NCBI RefSeq assembly: GCF_023078355.1
Contig: NZ_CP095552.1
Span: forward strand, 992,001 to 1,056,000
Origin: Gordonia hongkongensis
Lineage (GTDB): Bacteria; Actinomycetota; Actinomycetes; Mycobacteriales; Mycobacteriaceae
Reading direction: 5' to 3'
DNA length: 64,000 nucleotides
The position numbers were made by a program, and so were the translations under genes. The notes beneath the pieces were generated by a model. The model did not search any database. It worked only from the letters and a program-made list of their open reading frames with translations, and was not told where the DNA came from. Every line of letters begins with the position of its first letter. The first letter of the stretch is position 1. Positions 48,637 through 64,000 of the stretch are shown here, one piece after another.

Positions 48637-49494
48637 ATGAGCACGACCAACGCCAACCTCATCTGGAGCATCGCCGAGAAGCTGCGTGGACCGTTTCAGC
48701 CGAACCAGTACGGCGATGTCATCCTCCCGTTCGCCATCCTGCGACGTCTGGACTGCATCTTGAAGCCGACCAAGGACGAGGTTCTCGCCGAGTACAAGAA
48801 ACTTGCGAAGACCAAGGTTGATCCCGACATCGTTCTGAAGACCAAGTTCAAGCTGCCGTTCTACAACACGTCGCGATGGGACTTCCGCGCTCTGACCTCG
48901 GACGCTGAGGACGTCGCCGACAACCTGCTCAATTACATCGCACGTTTCTCTCCGAACATCCGTGACGTGTTCGACGGGTTCGGCATGGAAGACCTCATCG
49001 AGCGACTCAGCAAGTCCGATCGGCTATACCTGATCGTCAAGGAGTTCGCAGCCGTCGACCTGCACCCCAAGGCAGTCAGTGGGTACGAGATGGGTCTGAT
49101 CTTCGAAGAGCTCATCCGCAAGTTCGCCGAGTCCAACAATGCCGCCGCCGGTGACCACTTCACGCCGCGTGAGGTCATTGCCCTGATGGTCGACGTCCTG
49201 TTCGCGACCGCCGACGACGCGCTCACAAAGCCGGGGACCGTCCGGACGATCTACGATCCCGCAGCAGGTACCGGCGGCATGCTTTCCACCGCCTATGACC
49301 ATCTGCTGCAGATGAACCACAAGGCCCGACCGGTGCTGTATGGGCAGGAGATCAACTCCCGCTCGTACGCCATGTGCAAGTCCGACATGATCATCAAAGG
49401 TCAGGACGTCGACAACATCTATCTCGGCGACACCCTCACCGACGACAACTTCCGCGGCCGCCACTTCGACTACCTGCTGTCCAACCCGCCGTTC
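48637..49494 (+). pseudogene. hsdM: Type I restriction system methylase, N-terminal half (hsdM, interrupted at NPPF)
   Basis: Codes for 286 recognisable residues of an adenine-N6 methyltransferase, against about 500 or more in intact HsdM. The helical HsdM N-terminal domain (IAEKLRGPFQPNQYGDVILP) leads into the catalytic domain with GDHFTPREVIALMVDVL, the SAM-binding DPAAGTGGMLSTAYDHLL and finally DYLLSNPPF. The frame then runs on as unrelated sequence to a stop at 49584. The cut lies at the catalytic motif IV, so the stump cannot methylate. No hsdS or hsdR and no C-terminal half of hsdM are in the window. Confidence 0.88.
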
Positions 49495-49564
49495 CGTAAA
49501 ATGTCGGCGTGTTGTGGCAGTGTGTGTTGCTGTGGAGCAACGCGCAGGGACACGCGGATGGCGG

Positions 49565-51028
49565 ATGTCCTATGCGCGGCCTAGCCGCCGGCAACTGACC
49601 TCCACGGTGGCGCTCGAGTACGCGCCAACGATCGATGCGCGAGAAGCTGCTGTCGGTATCCGGCCGGGGCAACCGTTCCTGCTGCCGCCTATCGGCCGAC
49701 CGGACATCGACGTCTCGCTGTTCTTCGCTTCCGACACGTTCAAGCGCCTGGCCGCCGACTCCCAGGTCTCGTATGCGATGGACCTCAAGGTGTTCCTGTC
49801 GTTCCTCGCCGTCCAAGAAGTGGATTGGCGGGATGCCACCCGCGATGACCTCGTCGACTTCGAGTTCTGGCGCCGGCGCGACGACCGCAACCCCCGGCGG
49901 GTGAGCGCGGCCAAGTTCTCGCGGGAGCTCGCTGCAATCTCCAAGTTCTACAGCTGGCAGCAGTACCGGGGCACAGTGAGTCGATCGCCTGTGGTGATGG
50001 TCGACCAGCGAAAGCATTCGGGGCCGCCGAGCCTGCGTCCAGAGCTGCTGCCGAAAAGCGTGCGTTCGACCCGGGTGAAATGGTTGACCCCACGCGCATA
50101 CATTCGGTGGCGCGACATCGGACTCGGCGGGTACCTCCCGGACGGCACGCGAGACGAGAGATGGCGCGGCCGCAACGACGGCCGAAACCTCGCCCTCGCA
50201 GAAGCCCTGTGGTCCAGTGGATTACGACTCCGCGAAGGCGGATCCCTGGTCCTCGACGAACTCCCATCATTCACCTCGGAACTGCAGTACGTCAGAGGCC
50301 GTGTCGGCGAATCGGTGGCCAAGGGCGGCCGAGGACGGGACTTCTGGATCTCGGGCCGCACCCTGAAACTGATCGACAACTACCGCGAGTCGACCCGACG
50401 CGAGGCCGTCCACCGTGCCCAGCGCGAAGGCCGCTACACGGCGATCACCACGAAAAAGGTGGTGGACCGGGTCGACAACCGCCGGATCGTCCACTACCGA
50501 GATGGTGACGGCCGGCCGGGCACCGTGCCGCTGGACAACCTCGACTGGAAGGACCGGCTCGACTTCTTCGTCGGGGGTGAGAGCGGCCTCGAGCCGTGGA
50601 TGCTGTGGCTGTCGGAAGCCGGGCTGCCTCTGCCGTACCGCACCTGGGAGGCCGTGTTCTCCACGGCCAACGCACGCTGCCACGGACTCGGAGTCGACAT
50701 CCGGTGCCACCCGCACATGCTGCGGCACTCGTTTGCGCTGCGAATGCTGGTGTCGTTGATCTACGCCCACGACAGGCGGATGGGGATCACCGCGGAGGAA
50801 CGCCGCGAGTTCCGGCATCTGTTCGGTGATCCGTGGGTGCTCGTCCAAACGATGCTCGGACACGCGAATCTGGCGACGACCCGGAACTGTTATCTCGAGC
50901 CGGTATCCGGGCTGCAGGTCGAGTTGTTCCTCAACTCCGATCCGGCCGACGGGTCGCTGATCGACGACCTCGTCTCCCGGGTCGCCCAACTCTCGCCCCG
51001 AATCCAGGACGGCGAGGGGCAGCGATGA
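49565..51028 (+). CDS. Tyrosine recombinase, first of three (TnpA-like)
   Basis: About 487 aa. The N-terminal SAM-like core-binding domain (QVSYAMDLKVFLSFLAVQEV) is followed by the catalytic domain. Catalytic residues appear as Arg in SSGLRLREGGSL, HxxR in HMLRHSFALRM, His in MLGHANLATT and the nucleophile Tyr in TRNCYLEP, a complete active site. The frame opens at GTG 49514. I chose the ATG at 49565, with GGATGGCGG ahead, as the likelier start. The stop overlaps the ATG of the second gene. Confidence 0.85.
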   Translation: MSYARPSRRQLTSTVALEYAPTIDAREAAVGIRPGQPFLLPPIGRPDIDVSLFFASDTFKRLAADSQVSYAMDLKVFLSFLAVQEVDWRDATRDDLVDFEFWRRRDDRNPRRVSAAKFSRELAAISKFYSWQQYRGTVSRSPVVMVDQRKHSGPPSLRPELLPKSVRSTRVKWLTPRAYIRWRDIGLGGYLPDGTRDERWRGRNDGRNLALAEALWSSGLRLREGGSLVLDELPSFTSELQYVRGRVGESVAKGGRGRDFWISGRTLKLIDNYRESTRREAVHRAQREGRYTAITTKKVVDRVDNRRIVHYRDGDGRPGTVPLDNLDWKDRLDFFVGGESGLEPWMLWLSEAGLPLPYRTWEAVFSTANARCHGLGVDIRCHPHMLRHSFALRMLVSLIYAHDRRMGITAEERREFRHLFGDPWVLVQTMLGHANLATTRNCYLEPVSGLQVELFLNSDPADGSLIDDLVSRVAQLSPRIQDGEGQR

Positions 51029-52827
51029 GCCCGTCGACGTCGGCCGCGTTGCCGCCCGCAAGGTACGCCCGGCCGTCGCTGGTCGACGGCTCCCTGCGAC
51101 GTGTGAACTTCGTCGATCCCGACGGCCGTAGCAAGGCCTTCGACTTCACCGATGCCCCTGCAACACCGACACTTCTCGACGACCTCGTCCGCGCATTCGC
51201 CAGCGGTGTCGCACCGGGAGGACGCTGGCAGACGGTTACGACGGCAGAGGCGGCGGCCGGCACGGTCAGACACCTGGCGCGCTACCTGACCGAGTTCCAT
51301 CCGCACGTCGTCTCCCTGGCCGATCTCGATGCCGAAGTGTGGTGGGCGTGGCGGTCGGAGAAGGACAAGAACACTCGCTGGCCCGGGCAGGTAACGATGA
51401 TGCGGGCACTGCTGGCGGAGGCGACAACGCTGCCGCAGTCGACCCGTCGAGCGATGCGCGCAAAGGCCGTGAAACCACGCAAGCGCCTCCCCGCGAATGA
51501 CGCCTACACCCGGGACGAGTTCACCGCCATCCGCAATGCGGCGAATCACCGCGTGAACCAAGCCCTTCGGCGACTCGAGGCGAACACTGCGGTGCTGCAG
51601 TGTTACCTCGACGGAGACGAACCCGCCGATGCCCCGTCGTTCCAGGTGCAGGGCACACGCTGGACGGTCGGTTCCCTGCTGGCCCACCTATCCCGCACAG
51701 GGACGATGCCGTCGCAGTACCTGTCCTGGGCGGTGAGCCGAAAAGACTGCTTCGACCTTCGCGGTGTCACCAACCCTGCGCAAGCACTGTTCCCGAGCAT
51801 CGACGAGGTGCTCAACCTGATGGTCCTCCTCGTCTGTGAGCGAGGATTCAACCTGTCGGTGATGAACGCACTGACTGTCGACTCGTTCCCGGCATCGGAC
51901 CCGGACATCGAGGGCCCCGTCCATACCGTAGGGGTGGACAAACCGCGACGAGGAACCCGGCGATACTCCAACGAAATCCTCGCCGGCGAGGCCGGGAAAC
52001 TCTGGGAACGCGCGGTCACCCTGACGCAGCCGTGCCGCGACGCACTGCACGGGATGGGCTGTCCGACCGACAGACTGCTGGTCGCCCACCGGAACAAGAA
52101 CCTCACATCAGACGGCCCATTCCGCACAGAGTGGACGACCGCATGCCTCGGCACCTCCAGTGAAAGCCAGACCGCTGACGGTCCGACGTGGACGTTTCGG
52201 CGTCTCCGGTTGACCGAGCAGGTCTTGAACCAGACGGCACGACAGAACTCCGAAACCGAGAGTGAGGACATCTACCGACGGCCGGACCCGCTCACCGCAG
52301 AGGCAGCCTCCGAGACGATCACCGCCGGGTTGAACGATGCCGTAGCACACGCACACGCCTCAATCCACGTCCGCGCGATGAACACTCGTGAGGTCGAGCA
52401 GGCGCGGCAGAACCCGGAAGCTGCGGCCGCGACCCTCGATGTCCCGGTCCACACACTCAAACTGCTCCTGGCCGGACGTCTGGACACACCGACGGCGGCC
52501 TGCACGGACTTCTTCGGCAGCCCGTTCGCCGACGAGGCCGGCCAACCGTGCCCGGCCTCGTTCTTCGCATGCTTCGCATGCGACAACGCAATAATCACCC
52601 CGCGGCATCTGCCACGTCTGGTCGTCCTCCTCGACGCACTCGACGACATCGCGACCGTGGTGGCCACTTCCCGGTGGGATCGGGACTTCGCCGAACACTA
52701 CGCACGGCTGCGCACAATCCTCACGACCAACGCCACGACCGCCGAGATCGTCCAAGCACGCAGTGCTGCCCACGACGAGGATCGAGAGATGGTCCGTCGA
52801 CTGCTGAATCGGAGGCTCGACGGATGA
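51025..52827 (+). CDS. Recombinase-family protein, second of three (TnpB-like, degenerate active site)
   Basis: A 600-aa protein. The layout resembles a tyrosine recombinase: an arm/core region (VRHLARYLTEFHPHVV), a middle catalytic-like region (LVCERGFNLSVMNALTVD, WTFRRLRLTEQVLNQ, SEDIYRRPDP) and a C-terminal segment with clustered cysteines (CPASFFACFACDNAIITPRHL) typical of these three-gene sets. The first catalytic Arg position looks replaced (GFNLS for the usual GLRxS) and no LGH motif is visible. It may therefore be a structural partner. ATG and stop both lie in ATGA overlaps. Confidence 0.75.
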   Translation: MSPSTSAALPPARYARPSLVDGSLRRVNFVDPDGRSKAFDFTDAPATPTLLDDLVRAFASGVAPGGRWQTVTTAEAAAGTVRHLARYLTEFHPHVVSLADLDAEVWWAWRSEKDKNTRWPGQVTMMRALLAEATTLPQSTRRAMRAKAVKPRKRLPANDAYTRDEFTAIRNAANHRVNQALRRLEANTAVLQCYLDGDEPADAPSFQVQGTRWTVGSLLAHLSRTGTMPSQYLSWAVSRKDCFDLRGVTNPAQALFPSIDEVLNLMVLLVCERGFNLSVMNALTVDSFPASDPDIEGPVHTVGVDKPRRGTRRYSNEILAGEAGKLWERAVTLTQPCRDALHGMGCPTDRLLVAHRNKNLTSDGPFRTEWTTACLGTSSESQTADGPTWTFRRLRLTEQVLNQTARQNSETESEDIYRRPDPLTAEAASETITAGLNDAVAHAHASIHVRAMNTREVEQARQNPEAAAATLDVPVHTLKLLLAGRLDTPTAACTDFFGSPFADEAGQPCPASFFACFACDNAIITPRHLPRLVVLLDALDDIATVVATSRWDRDFAEHYARLRTILTTNATTAEIVQARSAAHDEDREMVRRLLNRRLDG

Positions 52828-54958
52828 CGGCACGTGTCTCCGCCGCCGCAGCGGTCCCCACCGCGGTGGCCATGTCGGACTCCGATCCGATCATCCTCGA
52901 CAAGACCCGCATCGCACCCGCCCACACCGAGCCGATCTCGCGGGTCGGAGACACCCGCTGGGATCTGGCCCCGCTGCTGCACAAACCCACCATCGTGGGC
53001 TCCCGGTCCATCAACTTCGACACCTTCCCGCCGTGTTTCCGTGCGGCAGCGAAGAGCTCATCTGGCTCTGCGTGAACGTGCCCACTCCCATGGAGGACCT
53101 GGAGCGACCGACTGCGACGCGTTCCCAGCTGTCGGTCGGCTCCATCATCGTCTACGCCGGTTTCCTACGACTGTGGATGACATGGCTTGATGGACAAGGC
53201 ATCCACCGGTTCGACGGTGTGACCGACGACGTGTATCGACGCTACTGTTCCGAGGTCGCCGTCAGCGGGCTCGGGCGTGAGAGCCAGGCCAACCGACTCT
53301 TTGCTATCACTCGGTGCTGGCTGTACGGGCCGTACCTGCCTGACTCCGACACCTTGACCCGCCCCTACTGGGAAGACACCCTCGCCAGAGCCGATGTCCT
53401 CGGTGACGCCAAGTGGTCCGCGGAGAACCGCACCCCTCCGATCCATCCGCAGACCATGTCGGCGCTGCTCGTCTGGGCGATCCGGTTCTGCACCGACTTC
53501 AGCGCGGACATCATCGCAGCGGCACGCACGAAATCGAACCCACCACGTCGTCCGCGCCTCGACGGCCTGACCCCCAGCGAGCGTTTCGGCAACTACGCAC
53601 AGCACCAGAGGACGTCATCCAAGAGAATCCCGGGGTTCTACCCGGCCAATCGCCCAGGCCAACGCTGCGTCGCAAAGCAGTTCATCGGCTGGCAGCTGGG
53701 CCTGGGCACGGACGACGTCGTTCACCTCGGTTCGATGGATCGGATCTTCGGCGACCTCGATCCGATTGACGAGGCAGTGCTGCCGGTACCGATCACCGGC
53801 ACCATTGATACCCGGCCCTGGACCGGCGGCATCAACTTCTACGACGTCGACAATCTGTGCCGATTGTTGGCTACCGCGGCATTCATCGTGGTCGCGTACC
53901 TGACCGGTATGCGCGGCGAGGAATGCCGAGCGTTGCGACGTGGCTGCTGCCGCACGGCCATCGACGAGAAGACTGGGCAAACCCGGCACCTGGTCTACGG
54001 TCAAGTATTCAAGGGCGCACTCGACGAGTCCGGCAACGCCCCTCCGGCCGGCAGCGAGCGCGACCAGCCGTGGCAGGCAATCGTGCCGGTCGCCAAGGCA
54101 GTCGAGGTGATGGAAGCGCTGTATCCCGACAGTGACCTGCTGTTCCCGCTCCGGGCGTTCACGCCATTCCAGAACGCCGACGCCGACAAGGCTGTGCATC
54201 CACGGATGATTCGTGACCGCACAGCGGACCTGATTGCCTGGTGCAACGCCAAGGCTGAGGAGTTCGGGCGCACAAACGAATCGATTCCCGCCGACCCTGA
54301 GGGCCCGGTTGTCGTCAAACGATTCCGCCGCACCCTTGCCTGGTTCATCTACCGCCAACCGGGGGGACGGATCGCCCTGGGGATCCAGTACGGGCACCTT
54401 CGGGGGCACAGTACCGACGGCTACGGCTCCCGAGTCGCTAGCGGCCTACGGGACGTGTTCCCCATGGAAGAGGCCCTGGCCACTGCCGAGTACCTCGAGG
54501 CCGCCGCTACCCGCCTCGACGACGGCGAATCCGTCACCGGGCCGGCCGCTCAGCGATATCAGGACGGTGTCCGCCTCTACCACCGGCAGTTCGGTGGCAG
54601 GTATCTGACCAACCGTCAGGCCGCAGCCCTGAACGCGAACCCGCGGCTGCGGATTTACGACAACAGCGAGCAGTTCGTGACCTGCTGCTACGACCAGTCC
54701 AAGGCCCTGTGTCACCCCGATCGGGACAGAACAGCGAGGGTCGAGGCATCACCAGATGTCACCAACTGCCAACCGAACTGCGGCAACATCGCCCGGACCG
54801 ACCGCAACATCACAGACGTCGAGGCTGCAATCGAGCAGACCCGCGACGAGATCGCGAGCCCCACTATCCCGCTACCGCTGAAAGTGCGCCTGGAACAGCG
54901 AATCAGCAGCCTTCAGCAGATCATCGACCATCACCGCAACCCTGAAGGATGCCGATGA
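52824..54958 (+). CDS. Tyrosine recombinase, third of three (apparent frameshift)
   Basis: About 711 aa after repair. The N-terminal frame (52824 onward, MTARVSAAAAVPTAV) is open to a stop at 53075. The rest continues in another frame. One extra G at 53054 joins FRAAAK to ELIWLCVNVPTPMEDLERP. The catalytic domain has Arg in LTGMRGEECRAL, RFRRTLAWFIYRQ, and GHLRGHSTDGYGS, which holds the His and likely nucleophile Tyr. A cysteine-rich tail (CCYDQSKALCHPD, NCQPNCGNIARTDRNI) may bind zinc. Both ends are ATGA overlaps, so the gene belongs to the coupled set. Confidence 0.82.
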
Positions 54959-55371
54959 TGGCGGCAACAACGGACGACGACGCGCGGCGGGCGATCCGAG
55001 ACGCGATGGACCGCCTCATCGCAGGCGAACCCCTGTACTCCGATGGCAAGCTCACCATCAAATCGCTCGCCGAGGAAGCGCGGATCAAACGCTGGTTGCT
55101 AACTCACCGCCACACCGACCTGCAATCAGAGTTCCGAGCACGGATTGCGAACACGGACGCGCCACCCGCTCTGGTGGCACTGCGCGATGAGCGGGACGGC
55201 GCCCAGCGACGCATCGACGAACTGACCGCAGACGTCACTGCCCTTCAGGAAACCGTCCATCAACTCGAACGGATCATCCAGGTGTTAGCGCTGGAGAACG
55301 ATCAGCTGCGCGAAGGTCAGCGCTCCGGACGAGTCGTGCCGATCGGGCCGCGTCAGGGAAACCAACAGTGA
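54955..55371 (+). CDS. Small coiled-coil DNA-binding-like protein (DUF6262/TnpC-like)
   Basis: A 138-aa protein. The N-terminal helical part has TIKSLAEEARIKRWLLTHRH, which looks like an HTH. A coiled coil follows (DERDGAQRRIDELTADVTAL and on to about residue 120). This is the usual fourth partner of three-recombinase modules and matches TnpC of Tn554 in size and place. It may direct orientation or assembly of the recombinases. ATG at 54955 is in the ATGA overlap with GAAGGA five bases ahead. Confidence 0.8.
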   Translation: MMAATTDDDARRAIRDAMDRLIAGEPLYSDGKLTIKSLAEEARIKRWLLTHRHTDLQSEFRARIANTDAPPALVALRDERDGAQRRIDELTADVTALQETVHQLERIIQVLALENDQLREGQRSGRVVPIGPRQGNQQ

Positions 55372-55542
55372 GCACAAACCGCACCATCGTGACCACGTCA
55401 AGCCACTCGGGGGGGGCGTGACCGAACCCAACGGGGTAGAGCAGGTCGATGCTGCCACTTGATCGTGCAGCAGCCCCGCCTGAAGCCGACTATATTCGGA
55501 TAGATCCTTCCTAACAGGGTTAAACCGGGTAGAGTTCCGAGA

Positions 55543-55561
55543 GACCGATACACGATCGGTC
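55543..55561. promoter_or_regulatory. Inverted repeat upstream of the defence operon
   Basis: Arms GACCGAT and ATCGGTC form a perfect seven-base inverted repeat with five bases between, 20 bases before the GTG of the HTH gene and directly ahead of its GGAGGGG ribosome site. A -10-like TATATT lies about 60 bases upstream. The HTH protein is the obvious candidate ligand, by inference. Confidence 0.5.
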
Positions 55562-55581
55562 GATGATTCGGAGGGGTAGCA

Positions 55582-55779
55582 GTGACGGAGCCGTGGCTGT
55601 CCGCTGATGACATCGCTGCCCATCTCGGCGTCACCAAGGACACCGTGTACAGCTGGATCGCCGAGAAGGCCATGCCTGCCCACAAGATCGGCCGCCTGTG
55701 GAAGTTCCAGGTCAGCGAGGTCGATTCTTGGGTGCGGGGCGGCGGGGCCGCCGCGATCCCTGATACGGCGGAGGGCTGA
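55582..55779 (+). CDS. Excisionase-family helix-turn-helix protein
   Basis: A 65-aa DNA-binding protein: WLSADDIAAHLGVTKDTVYS, then WIAEKAMPAHKIGRLWKF and a short tail. The fold is the same MerR/excisionase type as the chromosomal gene at 24468. It is preceded by GGAGGGG, starts at GTG and is followed by the helicase one base after its stop, so it is part of the operon. It could be the operon regulator or an element excisionase. The sequence does not decide. Confidence 0.85.
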   Translation: MTEPWLSADDIAAHLGVTKDTVYSWIAEKAMPAHKIGRLWKFQVSEVDSWVRGGGAAAIPDTAEG

Positions 55780-55780
55780 C

Positions 55781-58700
55781 GTGCGGAGCATCGACAACGT
55801 CAACGATCTACTCGGGGACGACCTCAAAACGGTGATCACGCCGGGTTCGAAGGTGCGCATCGCGGCGTCGACCTTTTCGATCTTCGCGTTCGAGGCGCTA
55901 CGCAAGGAACTCGAGCAGGTCTCCGAGCTGGAGTTCATCTTCACCTCGCCCTCCTTCGTGACGGAGAAGGTGACCGACCGGCTACGCAAGGAGCGCCGCG
56001 AGTTCTTCATCCCGGCCGGTCACGCGGAGTCGAGCCTGTACGGCTCCGAGTTCGAGATCAGACTGCGCAACCAGCTGACCCAGCGTGCGATCGCGAAGGA
56101 ATGCGCCGACTGGGTACGCCGCAAGGTGACGTTCCGGTCCAACTCGACCGGGAACCCGATGCAGCAGTTGGCAGTGGTCGACGATGCCGCCGCCTACTTC
56201 CCGATCCAGGGATTCACGACCACCGACCTCGGCTACGAGCGTGGGCCAGCGGTATCGAACATGAGCACCAAGTTCGAGGGCGCACCCGAGACACGGCATC
56301 TCCTCGACATCTTCGACCAGATCTGGAACAACCCGGACCAGCTCGACGACGTCACCCAGGCAGTCCACGACCACATCGCCAGCGTGTACGCCGAGAACTC
56401 CCCGGCCCGCATCTACTTCCTGATCCTCTACAACCTGTTCGCCGAGTTCCTCGACGACATCAACGAGGACGTGCTGCCCAACGACCGCACCGGCTACCAG
56501 GACACACAAGTCTGGAATGCGCTCTACAACTTCCAGAAGGATGCGGCGACCGGGATCATCAACAAGCTCGAGACCTACAACGGCTGCATTCTCGCCGACA
56601 GCGTCGGTCTCGGTAAGACGTTCACTGCGCTCGCAGTCATCAAGTACTACGAGCTGCGCAACAAGTCGGTACTCGTGCTGTGCCCGAAGAAGCTCGCCGA
56701 GAACTGGACGAACTACAACGCGAACCTGACCACGAACATCTTCGCCGGCGACCGGTTCAACTACGACGTGCTCGCCCACACCGACTTGTCCCGCACCCGG
56801 GGCGAGTCGATGGGGCTACGGCTCGATCGCGTGAACTGGGGCAACTACGACCTGGTCGTGATCGACGAGTCGCACAACTTCCGCAACGCAGACTTCTCCG
56901 AGGAGAAGGAGTCCCGCTACCAGCGGCTGATGCGGCAGGTGATCCGCGAGGGTGTGAAGACGAAGGTCCTCATGCTCTCGGCGACCCCGGTGAACAACAA
57001 GTTCAGCGACCTGAAGAACCAACTCCAGCTCGCGTACGAGGGCGAGTCGGACAACCTTGCCAAGCACCTCAACATTTCGACGACCGTCGAGAAGGTGTTC
57101 AAGGACGCGCAGATGGTGTTCAACGCCTGGTCGAAGCTCGATGCCGAGGATCGCACGACGGACCGCATCCTGAAGGATCTCGACTTCGACTTCTTTGAGT
57201 TGCTCGACGCCGTCACTATCGCCCGATCCCGCAAACACATTCAGGCGTTCTACGACACCACCGAGATCGGTGTGTTCCCGAAACGGCTGCCGCCCGCCTC
57301 GATCCGCCGGCCACTCACGGACGTCGACGGCATCCCGACGTTCAACGAGATCTTCGAGCAGCTGCAACAGCTCACGCTCGCCGTGTACACGCCATTGGCG
57401 TACGTGTTCCCCAGCCGCCTCCAGAAGTACGAGGACCTCTACAACGTCGGCACGGCCGGCGGCAAGGCGAATCTCGGGCAGCGAGGGCGTGAGCAGGGCC
57501 TGAAGAAGCTCATGACGGTCAACCTCCTCAAGCGTCTCGAGAGCTCCGTCGACGCGTTCCGGCTGACCCTGACGAAGATCGAGGGAACCGTCGATCGGAC
57601 ACTTGGCCGACTCGACGCACGCCACGGCACGCTCACCGACATGGACATCGATCTGGACGATCTCGAGGTCGACGACGAGGACGCGGCAGACGCCGAGGCA
57701 CTCGTGTTCGGCAACAAAATCAAGATCGACCTCGAGGACATCGACGTCGACTCCTGGCAGCGGGACCTGTGGAACGACCGCGAGACGCTGCACCGCCTGG
57801 TCACCGAGATGCACAGGATCACGCCCGCACACGATCTGAAACTGCGTGCCCTGAAAGATTTGATCACCGACAAGGCGGCGAACCCGATCAACGCCGGAAA
57901 CCGCAAGGTGCTGATCTTCTCCGCGTTCGCCGACACCGCCAACTACCTCTACCGCGAGCTCGGCCCCGCACTGAGCCCCGCCGGTATGGAACTCGGGCTC
58001 GTCACCGGCGGCGGGAACGGGGCGAAGACGACGATCGGCACCGGATACGACTTCCAGTCAGTCCTCACCCTGTTCTCGCCGCGGTCGAAGCAGCGGCACC
58101 TGACCATGCCGAAGGCAACGATCGAGATCGACATCCTGATCGGTACCGATGTGATCAGCGAGGGCCAGAACCTGCAGGACTGCGACTACCTGGTCAACTA
58201 CGACATTCATTGGAATCCGGTGCGGATCATCCAGCGTTTCGGCCGGGTCGACCGCATCGGCTCGACGAACACCCATATCCAGCTGGTGAACTTCTGGCCT
58301 GATATCTCGCTTGACGAGTACATCAACCTCAAGGAGCGGGTCGAGAACCGGATGGTCATCGCCGACCTCGCCGGCACCGCCGACGACAACGTCCTCACCC
58401 TCGAAGACTCCGACGCCACGTTCCGTAAACAGCAGCTCCGCAAGCTCCAGGACGAGGTCATCGAACTCGAAGACGTCCGCACCGGAGTCTCCATCACTGA
58501 CCTGGGGCTCAACGACTTCCGCATGGATCTACTCGGTTACCTCAAGGAGTACGGCGACCTCGCGTCCGCACCGAAGGGCCTGCATGCCGTGGTGCCCGCC
58601 GACCGGATCAAGGGGCTCACGCCTGGAGTGATCTTTGTGCTGCGGAACGTCGACGCCGACGAGAACATCAACCGCGGAAACCGGCTTCACCCGCACTACC

Positions 58701-59050
58701 TCGTCTACCTCGACAACAACGGCACCGTCATCGCCGACCACACCGAGGCCAAGCGTCTGCTGGATCTCATCCGGACCGGATGCCGCCCCCACGATCAGCC
58801 CGTCGCCGACGTTGTCCGCACCTTCAACACCGCTACCGGTGAGGGCGCGAATATGGAGCGGTACTCACAGCTGCTCACCGACGCGATCTACTCGATGATC
58901 GACGTCACCGAGGAACGCGACATCGACAGCCTGTTCACCAGCGGCCACACCACCGCCCTCACCCAGACCATCGCCGGCCTCGACGACTTCGAACTCATCG
59001 CATTCATCGCCGTAGTCGACCCCGATGGTGAGGCGCCGACGGATGGGTGA
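55781..59050 (+). CDS. SNF2-type helicase with PLD-like N-terminal domain
   Basis: A 1089-aa ATP-dependent motor. Residues 1-190 look like a phospholipase-D-like domain of restriction-associated helicases, but no clear HKD motif remains. The helicase core has Walker A ILADSVGLGKTFTALAVI, the DEAH-type box VVIDESHNFRN, motif III MLSATPVNNKFSDL, and motifs V-VI GTDVISEGQNLQDCDYLVNY and IIQRFGRVDRIGS. An acidic stretch (DIDLDDLEVDDEDAADAEAL) splits the core. This class is found in DNA-defence operons. It starts at GTG and overlaps the next gene by 8 bases. Confidence 0.88.
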   Translation: MRSIDNVNDLLGDDLKTVITPGSKVRIAASTFSIFAFEALRKELEQVSELEFIFTSPSFVTEKVTDRLRKERREFFIPAGHAESSLYGSEFEIRLRNQLTQRAIAKECADWVRRKVTFRSNSTGNPMQQLAVVDDAAAYFPIQGFTTTDLGYERGPAVSNMSTKFEGAPETRHLLDIFDQIWNNPDQLDDVTQAVHDHIASVYAENSPARIYFLILYNLFAEFLDDINEDVLPNDRTGYQDTQVWNALYNFQKDAATGIINKLETYNGCILADSVGLGKTFTALAVIKYYELRNKSVLVLCPKKLAENWTNYNANLTTNIFAGDRFNYDVLAHTDLSRTRGESMGLRLDRVNWGNYDLVVIDESHNFRNADFSEEKESRYQRLMRQVIREGVKTKVLMLSATPVNNKFSDLKNQLQLAYEGESDNLAKHLNISTTVEKVFKDAQMVFNAWSKLDAEDRTTDRILKDLDFDFFELLDAVTIARSRKHIQAFYDTTEIGVFPKRLPPASIRRPLTDVDGIPTFNEIFEQLQQLTLAVYTPLAYVFPSRLQKYEDLYNVGTAGGKANLGQRGREQGLKKLMTVNLLKRLESSVDAFRLTLTKIEGTVDRTLGRLDARHGTLTDMDIDLDDLEVDDEDAADAEALVFGNKIKIDLEDIDVDSWQRDLWNDRETLHRLVTEMHRITPAHDLKLRALKDLITDKAANPINAGNRKVLIFSAFADTANYLYRELGPALSPAGMELGLVTGGGNGAKTTIGTGYDFQSVLTLFSPRSKQRHLTMPKATIEIDILIGTDVISEGQNLQDCDYLVNYDIHWNPVRIIQRFGRVDRIGSTNTHIQLVNFWPDISLDEYINLKERVENRMVIADLAGTADDNVLTLEDSDATFRKQQLRKLQDEVIELEDVRTGVSITDLGLNDFRMDLLGYLKEYGDLASAPKGLHAVVPADRIKGLTPGVIFVLRNVDADENINRGNRLHPHYLVYLDNNGTVIADHTEAKRLLDLIRTGCRPHDQPVADVVRTFNTATGEGANMERYSQLLTDAIYSMIDVTEERDIDSLFTSGHTTALTQTIAGLDDFELIAFIAVVDPDGEAPTDG

Positions 59051-59720
59051 CCCCGGCGTGAACCTGCTCTACCGCTGGCCCGAGGCCGCACAGTTCGGCC
59101 GCCGCATCCCGAAAGAGAAGTTCTACGAGCACGGCACCGTCCCCGCCGCGGTGCGGGAGAAGTTCGTCGCCGAGGTGCGCCGCATCACCTGGGCCTACAA
59201 ACTCGCCGAGGCCACCGTCAACCTGCCCGGCAGCGACACGGTCCCCGAGATCCAGGTGTTCCGGATCGACGCGAAGGGCGCCGACGTCACCGAGTCGGTG
59301 CTGACCGCGATCGACAAGGCGATCCCGTTCCCGATCGTCTTCGAGATCAACCGCGTTCAGGGCGGGGCCGAGCACACCCGGATGGTGGCCGCGCACAAAC
59401 AACTCGTCTCCGGCACACCGAAACTCAGCGCCTACTACTCGACCGGCTGGCAGCCCGCCGACACCGGACGCCAACCGCTGCCGACCGCGATCACCCTGCC
59501 CGTCCTCTACACCGCGCTCCTGGAACCGTTGACGCCAGTGACGGTGCGGCCCGGCGAGGACATGTCGGAGGTCGCAGGCAGACTGCACGCGGCAGGAAAG
59601 CTCGAACGCGAAATCGCCGCACTGGAGCGCAAGCTCCGCACCGAGCCGCAGTTCAACCGCAAGGTGGAGCTGCGCCGGATCCTGAAAACGAAGCAAGCAG
59701 AGTTGGACTCATTGAGATGA
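59043..59720 (+). CDS. DUF4391-like protein of the defence operon
   Basis: A 225-aa protein that resembles the DUF4391 family: NLLYRWPEAAQFGRRIPKEKFYEHG, KIPVF-like PFPIVFEINR, then YSTGW, and a C-terminal helix (LEREIAALERKLRTEPQFNR). Such proteins occur between a helicase and a type III-like Mod gene. Their role is unknown; a link between helicase and methyltransferase is a guess. The ATG at 59043 (GTG 59058 is alternative) overlaps the helicase. ATGA overlap with the methylase. Confidence 0.75.
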   Translation: MGDPGVNLLYRWPEAAQFGRRIPKEKFYEHGTVPAAVREKFVAEVRRITWAYKLAEATVNLPGSDTVPEIQVFRIDAKGADVTESVLTAIDKAIPFPIVFEINRVQGGAEHTRMVAAHKQLVSGTPKLSAYYSTGWQPADTGRQPLPTAITLPVLYTALLEPLTPVTVRPGEDMSEVAGRLHAAGKLEREIAALERKLRTEPQFNRKVELRRILKTKQAELDSLR

Positions 59721-61612
59721 AGAGGCAGAACTGGCCCGTGGAGAAGCTGCGCATGACGTCCCCAGACTTGACCGACGCGAACGTCGGACAGCTCGCCGCA
59801 CTGTTCCCCAGCGTCGTCACCGAGACCGTTGACGCCGACGGTAATCCGAAGCGGGCCATCGACTTCGACCTGCTACGTCAGGAGCTGTCCGACCATGTGG
59901 TCGAGGGGCCGCAGGAGCGTTACCAGCTCGACTGGCCAGGCAAACGCGCCGCCGCGTTCGCCGCTAACGCGCCCATCGCCAAGACGCTCCGGCCCGTGCG
60001 CGAGGAATCCGTCGACTTCGACACCACCAAGAACCTCTTTATCGAAGGCGACAACCTCGACGCACTGAAGCTGCTTCAGGAGTCCTACCTGGGCAAGGTC
60101 AAGCTGATCTACATCGATCCGCCGTACAACACGGGGAACGACTTCGTCTATGCGGACGATTTTGCTGAGAGCACGCCGGAATACCTCGCCCGTTCCGGGC
60201 AGGTGGATGACTCGGGCGCGAAACTTGTGGCGAACCCCGAATCCAACGGACGGTTCCACTCGGACTGGTTGAGCATGATGTACCCGCGACTTAAGCTCGC
60301 GCGCAATCTGCTAACAAGCGACGGCGTCCTCTTCGTATCTGCCGACGATCACGAGTTGGCGAATTTACGTCGCCTCTGCGATGAGATTTTTGGAGAGGCG
60401 AACTTCCAAGCAGATATATCGTGGCAGAAGCGATACACACGCAGTAACAACACCCAAGACTTCACAACCGTTGTCGAGCACATCCTCGTTTACAGTCGCT
60501 CAAGCGAGTTCGAGGTAAACCTGCTTCCCCGCACGGATGAGGCTGATGGTCGGTACTCGAACCCTGACAACGATCCCCGCGGCCCGTGGAAGGGCGCCTC
60601 GTTCCTGAATCCCGCAACGCCTGAACAGCGGCCAAACCTGTGTTACCCGATTGCAAACCCCAATACAGGCAAAGTCACTTCGCCAACTACGAACGCTTGG
60701 CGTCGATCCAAGGAAGAGTTCGATCGACTTTGCGAAGAAGGGCTGCTCTATTGGGGAGCAGGCGGAACCTCGGCCGTGCCGTCCATAAAAATGTTCCTCT
60801 CGGAAGCACGCGGCTTGACGCCAGTCAACTTCTGGGAACACACGTATGCGGGAAATACTGACGACGGCACCCGCAATGTTGCTTCCCTATTCAATGCCAA
60901 ATTGTTCGACAATCCGAAGCCGGTCAAGCTGTTAATAAGAATTCTTGAGCACGCGACAGGGCAAGATTCGCTGATCCTCGACTTTTTCGGGGGCTCCGGC
61001 ACAACAGCCGAGGCAATTTTTGCTAAGAATGCTGAAGACGGGGGAGAGCGCCGATTTATTTTGGTCCAGCTCGATGAGATTCCACACCCCAAGTCTGAAG
61101 CCGCCAAGGCTGGCTACCAGACCATCGCTGCCGTCGCTCGCGAGCGCATCCGGCGTGCCGGGCACAAGGTACTTGAGGATGGGGGCGTAATGTCCGGTGA
61201 CCTGGACGTGGGCTTCCGAGCTCTGCGCATTGACACGACCAACATGACTGACGTGCTGCGGTCACCCGACGAGACGGATCAGTTGGCTCTCGATGAGCTG
61301 GAGAGCAGCATCAAACCCCACCGCTCGGGCGAGGACCTGTTGTTCCAGGTCCTGCTCGATTGGGGTCTCGAGCTGACGATGCCGATCAGTGTCGAACAGA
61401 TCGATGGGCGCGAGGTGTTCGTAGTCGAGGAGGGGGCGCTGATCGCGTGTTTCGACTTGGAGGTCAGCCCTCAGCTCGTGCGTCTCATCGCCGAGCGTGA
61501 ACCTCTGCGCGCAGTGTTCCGAGATTCCGCTTTCGCCTCGGACGACGCCCGTATCAATGCAGAGCAAGTCTTCCGCGAGGTGTCGCCCGCTACGGATGTG
61601 AAGGCGATCTGA
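59717..61612 (+). CDS. Type III-like site-specific adenine methyltransferase (Mod)
   Basis: A 631-aa beta-class DNA methyltransferase. Motif IV, IYIDPPYNTGNDFVYADDF, precedes the SAM-binding motif I, ILDFFGGSGTTAEAIF, which is the order of type III Mod proteins. Between them, roughly 60360-60960, lies the presumed target recognition domain. It is clearly richer in A+T and in rarer codons (TTT, AAA, ATA) than the flanks, as expected of a swapped domain. It should methylate an adenine in an asymmetric site and supply recognition to the Res partner. Starts in an ATGA overlap with the DUF4391-like gene. Confidence 0.9.
   Translation: MKRQNWPVEKLRMTSPDLTDANVGQLAALFPSVVTETVDADGNPKRAIDFDLLRQELSDHVVEGPQERYQLDWPGKRAAAFAANAPIAKTLRPVREESVDFDTTKNLFIEGDNLDALKLLQESYLGKVKLIYIDPPYNTGNDFVYADDFAESTPEYLARSGQVDDSGAKLVANPESNGRFHSDWLSMMYPRLKLARNLLTSDGVLFVSADDHELANLRRLCDEIFGEANFQADISWQKRYTRSNNTQDFTTVVEHILVYSRSSEFEVNLLPRTDEADGRYSNPDNDPRGPWKGASFLNPATPEQRPNLCYPIANPNTGKVTSPTTNAWRRSKEEFDRLCEEGLLYWGAGGTSAVPSIKMFLSEARGLTPVNFWEHTYAGNTDDGTRNVASLFNAKLFDNPKPVKLLIRILEHATGQDSLILDFFGGSGTTAEAIFAKNAEDGGERRFILVQLDEIPHPKSEAAKAGYQTIAAVARERIRRAGHKVLEDGGVMSGDLDVGFRALRIDTTNMTDVLRSPDETDQLALDELESSIKPHRSGEDLLFQVLLDWGLELTMPISVEQIDGREVFVVEEGALIACFDLEVSPQLVRLIAEREPLRAVFRDSAFASDDARINAEQVFREVSPATDVKAI
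60360..60960 (+). other. AT-richer target recognition domain within mod
   Basis: The section between the DPPY and FGGSG motifs uses many A/T-ending codons (ATTTTTGGAGAG, AGCAGATATATCG, AATGCCAAATTG) against a GC-rich background. The limits are approximate, by eye. It indicates separate ancestry of the specificity part. Confidence 0.6.
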
Positions 61613-61617
61613 CAGAG

Positions 61618-64000
61618 ATGAAGCTTCAGTTCAAGTTTCAGCAGTACCAGACCGATGCGGTCGACTCCGTTGTCGACGTGTTCGCCGGTCAACCCAAGCA
61701 CGATGGCATCTCGTATCGAGTCGACCCCGGACGTCGGCGGCGAACCGGTGAGGAGTCGTTGTACTCCGATTCGGGCCTGCGGAACGCAGAGATCGCATTG
61801 ACCGGTGCCCAGCTGCTGGAGAACGTCCATAAGGTGCAGCGTTCCCGAAACCTTCCGCTGTCGGCCAAGGTGGAGGACAGCAAGGCGGCACCGGGGGCAC
61901 CCAATCTGGATGTCGAGATGGAGACTGGTACCGGCAAGACCTACGTCTACATCAAGACGATCATGGAACTGAACAAGCGGTACGGCTGGTCGAAGTTCAT
62001 CATCGTCGTACCGTCGGTGGCGATCCGTGAGGGCGTGCAGAAATCGTTCGATGTCACCGCCGAGCACTTTCAGCAGCTCTATGGAACGAAGCCGCGGTCG
62101 TTCATCTACAACTCGTCGCAACTGCACGAGCTGGAGCGGTTCAGCTCCGATGCCGGTGTGCAGGTGATGATCATCAACATCCAGGCGTTCAACTCGTCCG
62201 GCAAGGACAACCGCCGCATCTACGACGTGCTCGACGATTTCCAGTCTCGACGGCCGATCGACGTGATCAAGGCCAACCGGCCGATCGTGATCATCGACGA
62301 GCCACAGAAGATCGGCGCGGACAAGTCACTCGTATCTCTGGCCGAGTTCAACGCGCTGATGGTGTTGCGCTACTCGGCCACCCACAAGGTCGAGCACACC
62401 AAGGTTCACCGCCTGGACGCCCTCGACGCGTACAACCAGAAGCTGGTCAAGAAGATCGCCGTCCGCGGCATCACCGTCAAGGGACTCGCTGGCTCGACCG
62501 CGTACCTGTACGTCGATGCCATCGAGATCGGCAAGGGCGCCAATCCTCGTGCCCGGGTCGAGATTGAAGTTCAGACGAAGACTGGCATCAAGCGCCAGGT
62601 CAAGCGTCTCGACAAGGGTGACAACCTGCACGACATCTCCGGCGGCATCGAGGCATACAAGGGCCTGTTCATCACCAACATCGACGCCAACCGTGACGCG
62701 CTCGAACTGAGCAACGGTGACGTTGTCATCGCCGGTCAGCTCGCCGACCGGGACGTGACCGAGGAAACCAAGCGGCGCATCCAGATTCGCGAGGTGATCC
62801 GGGCTCACCTCGACAAGGAGCGGGAGCTGTTCAGTCGGGGTATCAAGATACTCTCGCTGTTCTTCATCGACGAGGTCGCCAAGTACCGCGACTATGACCG
62901 CGAGGACACACTCGGCGACTACGCACGGATCTTCGAGGAAGAGTACGTCGCGATCCGCGACGACGTGCTCGGTGAACTCGCCCTTGACGACTCGACCGCC
63001 GCGCACCAGGAGTATCTGCTCCGCGACGACGTCCGTGCCGTGCACGAGGGCTACTTCTCCATTGACAAGAAGACTAAGCGGCAGGTCGACGGCAAGGTCA
63101 GTGGACGCGGCGATGACAAGGGCCAGTCCACCGACACCGACGCCTACGATCTGATCCTCAAGAACAAGGAACGACTGCTGTCGTTCGAGGAACCGGTGCG
63201 GTTCATCTTCTCGCACTCCGCACTGCGCGAGGGCTGGGACAACCCTAACGTGTTCGTCATGGGGATGCTCAAGAAGAGCGACAACACCGTCTCGCGCCGG
63301 CAGGAGATCGGTCGCGGTCTGCGGTTGGCGGTCGACCAGCACGGCGAACGCATGGACAACCCGGTCGTCGTGCACGACATCAACGAACTGACCGTCGTCA
63401 CCGACGAGTCCTACACCGACTTCGTGACCGGACTCCAGAAGGAGATCGCCGACTCGTTGGCGTCGCGGCCACGCAAGGCGAGTGTCAAGTTCTTCACCGG
63501 CAAGACCATCCAGACTCCCAGTGGCGAATCCGTCGTGGAGGAGGCGCTTGCGCAGGCGCTGTACAAATACCTGATCAAGAACGACTACCTCAACGACGAC
63601 GACACGGTTTCCGAGACGTACAAGCAGGCCAAGGAAACTGGCACCCTCGCCGAACCCACTTCGGAGGTGCTGCGGTCGGTCATCGATTCCGTGTGGCCGC
63701 TCGTGGATGCGCTGTATCTCGATGTGAAGGTGATCGGTGAGGACGGCCGCAAGCCGAAGAAGATCCCGCTCAACGAGGCCAACTTCGCTAAGAAGGAGTT
63801 CCAGGCACTCTGGCGTCGAATCAACCACAAGGCGGTCTACCAGGTCGAGTTCGACTCGAACGAGTTGATCCGCAAGTGCATTCAGACGCTCGACAGCCAT
63901 CTCAACGTGGCTGCGATGCAGTATGTCCTCATCGAAGGACTGCAGAAGGACGCCCTCGACGCCGAGGATCTGACCAACACGGCCGGATTCGACCAAACGC
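61618..64000 (+). CDS. Type III-like restriction helicase subunit (Res), 3' truncated by the window
   Basis: At least 794 residues, still open at the end of the window. MKLQFKFQQYQTDAVDSVV begins the N-terminal motif. Then come Walker A VEMETGTGKTYVYIK, the DExx box IVIIDEPQKIG, motif III-like LRYSATHKVEH and motif VI NTVSRRQEIGRGLRLAVDQ. These are the helicase motifs of type III Res and related DEAD/DEAH restriction enzymes. The endonuclease domain expected at the C-terminus lies beyond the window. It starts five bases after the mod stop. Together with Mod it should cut unmethylated DNA by ATP-driven translocation. Confidence 0.88.
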   Translation, partial: MKLQFKFQQYQTDAVDSVVDVFAGQPKHDGISYRVDPGRRRRTGEESLYSDSGLRNAEIALTGAQLLENVHKVQRSRNLPLSAKVEDSKAAPGAPNLDVEMETGTGKTYVYIKTIMELNKRYGWSKFIIVVPSVAIREGVQKSFDVTAEHFQQLYGTKPRSFIYNSSQLHELERFSSDAGVQVMIINIQAFNSSGKDNRRIYDVLDDFQSRRPIDVIKANRPIVIIDEPQKIGADKSLVSLAEFNALMVLRYSATHKVEHTKVHRLDALDAYNQKLVKKIAVRGITVKGLAGSTAYLYVDAIEIGKGANPRARVEIEVQTKTGIKRQVKRLDKGDNLHDISGGIEAYKGLFITNIDANRDALELSNGDVVIAGQLADRDVTEETKRRIQIREVIRAHLDKERELFSRGIKILSLFFIDEVAKYRDYDREDTLGDYARIFEEEYVAIRDDVLGELALDDSTAAHQEYLLRDDVRAVHEGYFSIDKKTKRQVDGKVSGRGDDKGQSTDTDAYDLILKNKERLLSFEEPVRFIFSHSALREGWDNPNVFVMGMLKKSDNTVSRRQEIGRGLRLAVDQHGERMDNPVVVHDINELTVVTDESYTDFVTGLQKEIADSLASRPRKASVKFFTGKTIQTPSGESVVEEALAQALYKYLIKNDYLNDDDTVSETYKQAKETGTLAEPTSEVLRSVIDSVWPLVDALYLDVKVIGEDGRKPKKIPLNEANFAKKEFQALWRRINHKAVYQVEFDSNELIRKCIQTLDSHLNVAAMQYVLIEGLQKDALDAEDLTNTAGFDQT

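Follow-up and report, generated by a model that had tools for sequence, protein, structure and literature searches.

Recurrent insertion of a GInt/SE-like element and its relatives at the motif IV codons of DNA methylase genes

The stretch of Gordonia hongkongensis DNA analysed here (the window, 64,000 nucleotides, G000:C1:992001-1056000 of a two-contig, 5.41 Mb genome) contains an integrated element similar to GInt and SE elements, in which a four-gene recombination module (three tyrosine-recombinase-type proteins and one small protein) is followed by a four-gene type III-like restriction operon. The 15.3 kb element splits hsdM, a type I DNA methylase gene, at the codons of motif IV, and close relatives do likewise in several kinds of methylase gene; very probably, immune systems are replaced in this way through GInt/SE-type recombination. 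What is remarkable is the recurrence at methylase motif IV in relatives and not the site string itself.

The split hsdM gene

An earlier note on this DNA had hsdM stopping at an NPPF motif, and the frame does leave the gene there. The 5' part, covering HsdM_N and N6_Mtase profile positions 6-137, ends at motif IV codons N-P-P (the frame is lost at SNPPF and continues as a short tail into the element), while the 3' half (N6_Mtase positions 131-293) was located at G000:C1:1056799-1057356, ~0.8 kb past the window end. Both halves, 15.3 kb apart, are joined at the same NPPF codons. The C-terminal half of hsdM, hsdS and hsdR had been expected past position 64000 and all were found there, hsdS and then pieces of an apparently decayed hsdR following the hsdM 3' half. 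The features of the insertion are:

48637..49490, + strand: hsdM 5' part, type I DNA methylase (HsdM_N and N6_Mtase matches)
49483..49494, + strand: left junction, AACCCGCC/GTTC (both junctions read)
49491..64000 and on to G000:C1:1056810, + strand: integrated GInt/SE-like element (both junctions read)

The left junction reads AACCCGCC/GTTCCGTAAAATG from window position 49483 (longer form ...CTGTCCAACCCGCC/GTTCCGTAAAATGTCGGCGTGTTG; slashes mark the junction) and the right one ...CTGTACGGAA/CCGCCGTTCGGTGTGGAG (longer form ...CAACACGTTGAAACCCTGTACGGAA/CCGCCGTTCGGTGTGGAG). Common to both is a CCGCC core (49486-49490), after which the first base of the element is 49491; its length is 15,320 bp. 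The ends have an imperfectly inverted CGTGTTGT in common and the direct repeat at the ends of this copy is CCGCCGTTC (9 nt).

Methylase genes as targets of related elements

Relatives were searched for with GinA, the first recombinase of the module, in genomes of the family (39 of 301 matched at 1e-10), the order (15 of 397 at 1e-50), the phylum (2 of 396 at 1e-70, namely the G. hongkongensis genome and one distant), the genus Gordonia (2 of 59, G. hongkongensis and G. sihwensis) and the genera of genomes G147 (18 of 248 at 1e-100) and G111 (1 of 18), as well as in 72,556 plasmids, 208 of which matched (the best 30 of the 208 were inspected and six opened). Viral contigs contained nothing close to the element (one search gave three matches of ~30%) and phage records gave no match to it. 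The GinA clade around the G. hongkongensis copy, with 54-95% identity, has tree support of 100/99. Targets were counted for its 16 members with a readable left flank; G1129, whose contig starts inside ginA, was dropped.

This analysis revealed that 15 of the 16 left flanks, including that of G. hongkongensis, end inside a DNA methylase gene at its motif IV codons (altered in one case). The targets are: (i) hsdM in six copies (G. hongkongensis, R. coprophilus, a Rhodococcus metagenome-assembled genome (MAG), R. pyridinivorans PE41, the outer copy of G1070 and G1192), (ii) a type ISP gene in another six (G. sihwensis, R. pyridinivorans Y6, M. poriferae, G1160, G1145 and Ornithinimicrobium), (iii) the HmaB gene (inner copy of G1070), (iv) a Mod-like gene with IDPPF (G. 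terrae) and (v) another N6_Mtase gene (G1193). Some of these were read over limited lengths, i.e. just 46 residues of hsdM before the contig ends in the Rhodococcus MAG and 130 residues of the ISP target in G1145; the hsdM 5' part of G1192 is itself interrupted again, and the G. terrae target has no Pfam match and is annotated in its record as 'restriction endonuclease subunit M'. The hsdM of R. coprophilus is 53-55% identical to that of G. hongkongensis and its break falls on the same codons. Both halves are present there along with the element, and the 3' half lies behind the cargo; the arrangement that would have spoken against the earlier note, with this half directly after the recombination module (position 55371), was not seen there. 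Two R. pyridinivorans plasmids carry near-identical GinA proteins (one a 413-residue piece), one of them in an ISP gene and the other in hsdM. Three more truncated HsdM proteins bearing the element tail were found in the protein database by a search that was built on hsdM and shows recurrence, not specificity.

Right junctions were read for six copies (G. hongkongensis, R. coprophilus, M. poriferae, both G1070 copies and G1192). In all six the methylase resumes at Pro-Pro codons after ...TG(T/C)AC(G/A)GAA, and the core is CCGCC in five. No right junction was obtained for the other 10 of the 16 copies (contig end, insertion sequence (IS) or loss). The ISP gene of M. vanbaalenii JOB5 is intact where that of M. 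poriferae is split, and the two alleles are nearly identical (299/300 and 596/600 in the flanks). The empty site reads GGGAATCCGCCTTACAAG, the left end in M. poriferae GGGAATCCGCC/GTTCCGTAGAATG and the right end TACAGAA/CCGCCTTACAAG, and this fixes the ends of the M. poriferae copy to the base: NTTC at the left junction is element-derived and the right junction keeps the target bases. In hsdM of the R. coprophilus type the left junction has TTC, while the right junction and two intact relatives (L125 and L126, reading NPPY) have TAC, and therefore the left bases arrive with the element. Uninterrupted hsdM genes, which the earlier note had proposed for comparison, do exist in relatives: 20 family loci with the hsdM 3' half were fetched, 18 of which are uninterrupted at the site (CCGCC in 15 of these 18), and one uninterrupted Gordonia hsdM is 86% identical to the split gene.

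Several further observations concern these hosts and sites. Two other hsdM genes of the G. hongkongensis genome (at G000:C1:39329 and G000:C1:1964848) have perfect, vacant AAYCCGCCGTTC sites. The R. pyridinivorans Y6 plasmid carries a second recombinase module (L078:7988-11750; two integrases and a DUF6262 protein) ~6 kb from the studied one. Protein records P0003 and P0134, one a truncated HsdM bearing the element tail and the other an ORF2 protein (ORF, open reading frame) named from Williamsia muralis, hint at a further host genus.

More distant gin lineages were found at other codons. M. vanbaalenii JOB5 carries the same four-gene cargo (59-83% identical) with a GinA just 29% identical to that of G. 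hongkongensis, and this element lies in the opposite direction at motif I (LDP/FTGTGTF) of the ISP gene compared above with that of M. poriferae; the N-terminal half of the gene is found beyond the element. Two Microbacterium plasmids (L172:12237-13901 and L173:12158-13825) encode GinA proteins 44-46% identical to that of JOB5. Their elements lie antisense at motif I, in one case at TCGSGAFL in an Eco57I-type methylase and in the other at ACGCGNFL in an MmeI-type methylase, as read from the C-terminal sides; helicase and DUF1156 cargo is carried by one of the two. This lineage was at methylase motif I in 3/3 cases looked at, a small and partly selected sample: the lineage was noticed through the likeness of its cargo, and the best three of 204 plasmid records matching its GinA were examined. 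Other gin lineages (L043, L049, L134, L135, L140-L142, L144 and L147) appear, as judged by eye, to lie at conserved-motif codons of pstA, dprA and nrdH-like genes. Targeting of motif codons may be a general habit of gin elements.

Cargo and competing explanations

The module and the cargo of the G. hongkongensis copy consist of the following genes:

49565..51028, + strand: ORF1, GinA-like tyrosine recombinase of 487 aa (Phage_integrase and Phage_int_SAM_1; large family)
51025..52827, + strand: ORF2, 600 aa, tyrosine-recombinase fold (fold search)
52824..54958, + strand: ORF3, probable large tyrosine recombinase (weak Phage_int_SAM_1, invariant columns)
54949..55371, + strand: ORF4, GinD/TnpC-like small protein of 140 aa (position and conservation in relatives)
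55607..59050, + strand: cargo 1, SNF2-type helicase of the PADLOC 'HKD+Snf2' class (PADLOC C3a139, 399 bits)
59025..59720, + strand: cargo 2, DUF4391 protein (PF14335, 165 bits)
59717..61612, + strand: cargo 3, type III methylase Mod (PADLOC MTase_III, 750 bits)
61618..64000, stop at G000:C1:1056683, + strand: cargo 4, type III restriction subunit Res of 1021 aa (PADLOC REase_III, 862 bits)

The plan described in the earlier note, in which a mobile element splits a type I methylase gene and has its recombinases at one end with a restriction operon behind them, agrees with these data, with two corrections: the defence operon comprises four genes (HKD-Snf2 helicase, DUF4391, Mod and Res) instead of five, and the module, with four genes including a further recombinase-fold protein, is GInt/SE-like and not Tn554 proper. 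Judging from alignment columns, ORF2 apparently lacks the first catalytic arginine. ORF3 gave a weak Phage_int_SAM_1 match in 3/10 relatives and has invariant R..RFRR..GH..Y columns; neither ORF2 nor ORF3 matched ORF1 significantly when their profiles were compared, and the fold search resolved ORF2 only. For ORF4 the Pfam matches are only weak, of the coiled-coil type and without a clear family. No serine integrase or conjugation family was found among the element proteins scanned. Both subunits of a type III restriction-modification (RM) system, Mod and Res, are encoded; the centre of Mod (60301-61200) is strongly diverged among relatives in the identity profile, and the C-terminal part of Res holds a RE_endonuc domain.

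The hsdR gene behind the split hsdM (G000:C1:1059157-1062292; L005:4157-7292) is spread over three reading frames, which amounts to two frame changes, as judged against the hsdR of G1070 and G1192, which is open behind the insertion in both; the frame changes reflect either decay or an assembly error. Further on (L005:7343-14843), genes for a GmrSD_N protein and for two paired proteins, dynamin-like or GTPases, suggest a wider defence island.

A methylase-bearing defence system was found in each of the 13 copies whose cargo is visible; an IS insertion or a contig end keeps PE41, G1160 and G1145 out of this count. These are: (i) a type III-like set (G. hongkongensis, R. coprophilus and G. sihwensis), (ii) an MmeI-type enzyme with a DEAD helicase and a GIY-YIG protein (R. 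pyridinivorans Y6) and a similar set read from translation (Rhodococcus MAG), (iii) a type I RM system with genes for SprT, SIR2 and DUF87 behind it (M. poriferae), (iv) an NgoFVII-type nuclease with an MmeI-type methylase (G. terrae, G1211 and G1193), (v) a helicase with an MmeI-annotated gene (Ornithinimicrobium), (vi) a type IIG-like methylase with an HKD-Snf2 helicase (G1192), (vii) Hma cargo (outer copy of G1070) and (viii) BREX with a SIR2-like gene (inner copy of G1070). The G1070 copies are nested: the outer element splits hsdM, which resumes ahead of hsdS and an open hsdR, and the HmaB gene of its HmaA-HmaB cargo is split at DPPY codons by the BREX element, resuming at CCGCCGTACTAC after ...CATGTACGGAA.

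By analogy to GInt, ORF1-ORF4 would act as a tyrosine-recombinase machine of the GInt/SE kind that excises the element as a circle, and the circle site ...TGTACGGAA-CCGCC-NTTCCGTAAAATG... would recombine with a chromosomal site of core RAYCCGCC. N6-methylases of different classes have in common a hydrophobic strand followed by (N/D)PP(F/Y); therefore GC-rich actinobacteria would encode similar DNA there, and one recombinase could in consequence enter HsdM, ISP, HmaB, Mod-like and other methylase genes. Modification should be lost upon insertion. Restriction in type I, ISP and type III systems likewise needs the methylase or recognition part, and therefore no unprotected nuclease would be left in the cell. 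Simultaneously the element would bring in a defence system of its own, of the restriction kind or otherwise methylase-based, and the outcome would be the swap of one immune system for another, repeatable by nesting. Specificity would thus reside in motif-encoded DNA and replacement of the defence system would be the selected benefit; competition between defence systems, as proposed in the earlier note, may be part of it.

Two rivals of this replacement scheme, neighbour-gene capture and survivor bias, are live. It is quite possible, although somewhat short of an even chance, that the cargo is determined by neighbourhood, the element being an ordinary site-specific island in defence islands whose imprecise right ends capture nearby restriction genes without selection for a replacement. 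The right ends adjoin the methylase remainder and then hsdS/hsdR or a helicase gene, and the cargo types are diverse and exchanged independently of GinA, as in M. vanbaalenii and on two proteobacterial plasmids where, according to the annotation, the four-gene cargo order stands without gin genes in the stretch concerned (E. coli pRHB17-C02_4 and, with one extra gene, Phaeobacter pP97_c). Moreover, distant relatives with other targets have a methylase of these kinds within ~11 kb behind ginD in only 1/19 cases, a contrast biased toward the replacement scheme, with L053 left out and reference proteins taken mostly from clade cargo. Some of these distant relatives are the ones read by eye in pstA, dprA and nrdH. 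Several cargos are, however, whole multi-gene systems (BREX, Hma, type I) and not fragments. Capture of neighbours and replacement are compatible and not mutually exclusive.

It is rather doubtful that a short core of about RAYCCGCC suffices, with the elements inserting widely, being lost elsewhere and persisting in dispensable type I, ISP and III methylase genes. The common core is only CCGCC and a few bases; in the junction profile, built from 15 flanks (G1211 included, Ornithinimicrobium not), the trend is nTS nTS nnS RAY CCGCC, with the T positions holding in 12/15 junctions. In the G. hongkongensis genome of 5.4 Mb the strict site string RAYCCGCCSTTC was counted 13 times (9 times for a reversed-pattern control); three of these sites are in hsdM genes, two of them vacant, and 10 lie outside methylases, as does one copy of the clade (G1211). 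Since RAYCCGCCSTTC is mostly found outside methylases, the core alone does not explain the target choice, and wider recognition or survivor bias is needed. Survivor bias is opposed by the target counts: for 15/16 the binomial p is ~3.5e-9 at a chance of 3/13, and 0.003 at a chance of 3/5 (the wider consensus also required; 3/5 is a hand count), the events being not fully independent in either case. It is also opposed by the left-end string, found in just 4/401 family genomes, all of them known copies.

The same rarity is among the observations that weigh against replacement by motif-guided insertion. Only three of the 13 RAYCCGCCSTTC sites are in methylases; the left end in G1211 has no methylase frame, the sole exception of the 16; the junction codons in Ornithinimicrobium are altered and its ISP target gene is in pieces; and the outer right junction of G1070 reads CCTCC. 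Some insertions may be related by descent, since one and the same ISP allele is split in G1160 and in M. poriferae. Avoidance of the element's site by the cargo methylases was considered and is not supported, as 7/11 have CCG as the first Pro codon. The G. hongkongensis locus has one frame change in ORF3 (near its 5' end, window 52824-53168, compared with the R. pyridinivorans copy) besides the two in hsdR, and given the former this copy may be immobile, an assembly error being an alternative. Mobility, the circle and excision are predicted features of the element.

Tn554 proper is highly improbable: the terminal recombinases with cargo following them, the TnpC-like small protein and the site-specific insertion fit it, but the four-gene module with its further recombinase-fold protein, the small protein without a clear family match and a target other than radC, the usual one for Tn554, do not. 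That degenerate genes came together by chance at the split in hsdM, or that the split is an assembly artefact, as the frame changes in ORF3 and hsdR might suggest, is practically ruled out by the same junction across independent assemblies and species, the precise ends and the empty site at 99% identity.

With motif-guided replacement as the explanation, the element looks like a natural vehicle for exchanging bacterial immune systems. It would give a concrete mechanism for fast turnover of restriction systems, in which a recombinase finds defence genes by their catalytic-motif DNA and swaps them in one step. It would also account for nested defence loci, predict where such islands lie, at the methylase codons for motif IV and motif I, for genome-wide detection and offer recombinases that read a site encoded by a protein motif.

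Comparison with known systems

The comparison below draws on parts of the cited papers. GInt elements have a four-gene operon (three tyrosine-recombinase-like proteins and a small TnpC-like protein; all four genes are needed), variable cargo that includes restriction systems, a short 3' end, imperfect direct repeats of 10-17 nt and site-specific insertion in genes (Bardaji et al. 2017, PMC5385486). The G. hongkongensis element is alike in its three tyrosine-recombinase-type proteins and small fourth one, with the module 5', cargo behind and a short 3' end, and differs in two respects: the genes named as GInt targets encode an ABC transporter, Ssb and a ribonucleotide reductase, whereas here the target is a methylase gene (a term search of the main text of PMC5385486 gave neither 'methyl' nor 'Actinobacteria'); and, going by alignment columns, the second recombinase instead of the third appears to lack the first arginine. 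For the direct repeats the comparison is less clear-cut, the stretch shared by the ends of this copy being 9 nt. SE elements, described from Gammaproteobacteria, show strand-biased circularization and a 6-bp footprint (PMC10214605). Their order of active, degenerate and large active recombinase and small protein matches the module studied here, with the degeneracy of ORF2 read from alignment columns, a likeness of gene order and not of compared proteins. As described, Tn554 has tnpA, tnpB and tnpC only, without a counterpart of ORF2, versus four genes here.

Methylase targeting itself is already known from Tn1806-like streptococcal integrative and conjugative elements (ICEs), which enter and split several methylase genes, among them hsdM, one for an SNF2-methyltransferase and one of the Eco57I type, and are also seen nested within another ICE (PMC12942858, PMC13006639, PMC4701971). 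These differ in having triple serine integrases and conjugation modules (ORF1 here is a tyrosine recombinase); the two 2026 papers among these report resistance cargo. The insertion site of these ICEs is given as repeats of 4 bp, TGGG/GGGA(T) or GGGG (PMC4701971, PMC12942858, PMC13006639), and a term search of PMC12942858 gave neither NPP nor motif. GGGG may correspond to the complement of Pro-Pro codons CCCC. In the literature searched, which included neither preprints nor most subscription papers, we did not find a site defined as the catalytic motif IV or I codon block, a tyrosine-recombinase lineage specialised on a motif site across methylase classes, methylase-targeting elements that regularly carry a replacement system, or a paper joining DUF4391 with restriction; the 10 matches listed of 486 for NPPY/NPPF with attB included nothing relevant.

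Taken together, the balance tips slightly toward the view that methylase catalytic-motif codons are general homing sites for immune-system-replacing elements, used by the GinA clade at motif IV (five classes), by a distant clade at motif I in antisense and, possibly by convergence on Pro-Pro codons, by the streptococcal ICEs. Resident systems would be knocked out where this is not suicidal, and the newly installed ones would later be targeted themselves, as with BREX in HmaB in hsdM. The type III RM system with HKD-Snf2 helicase and DUF4391, which stands alone on the E. coli plasmid and with one extra gene on the Phaeobacter plasmid, is here carried by a methylase-targeting element.

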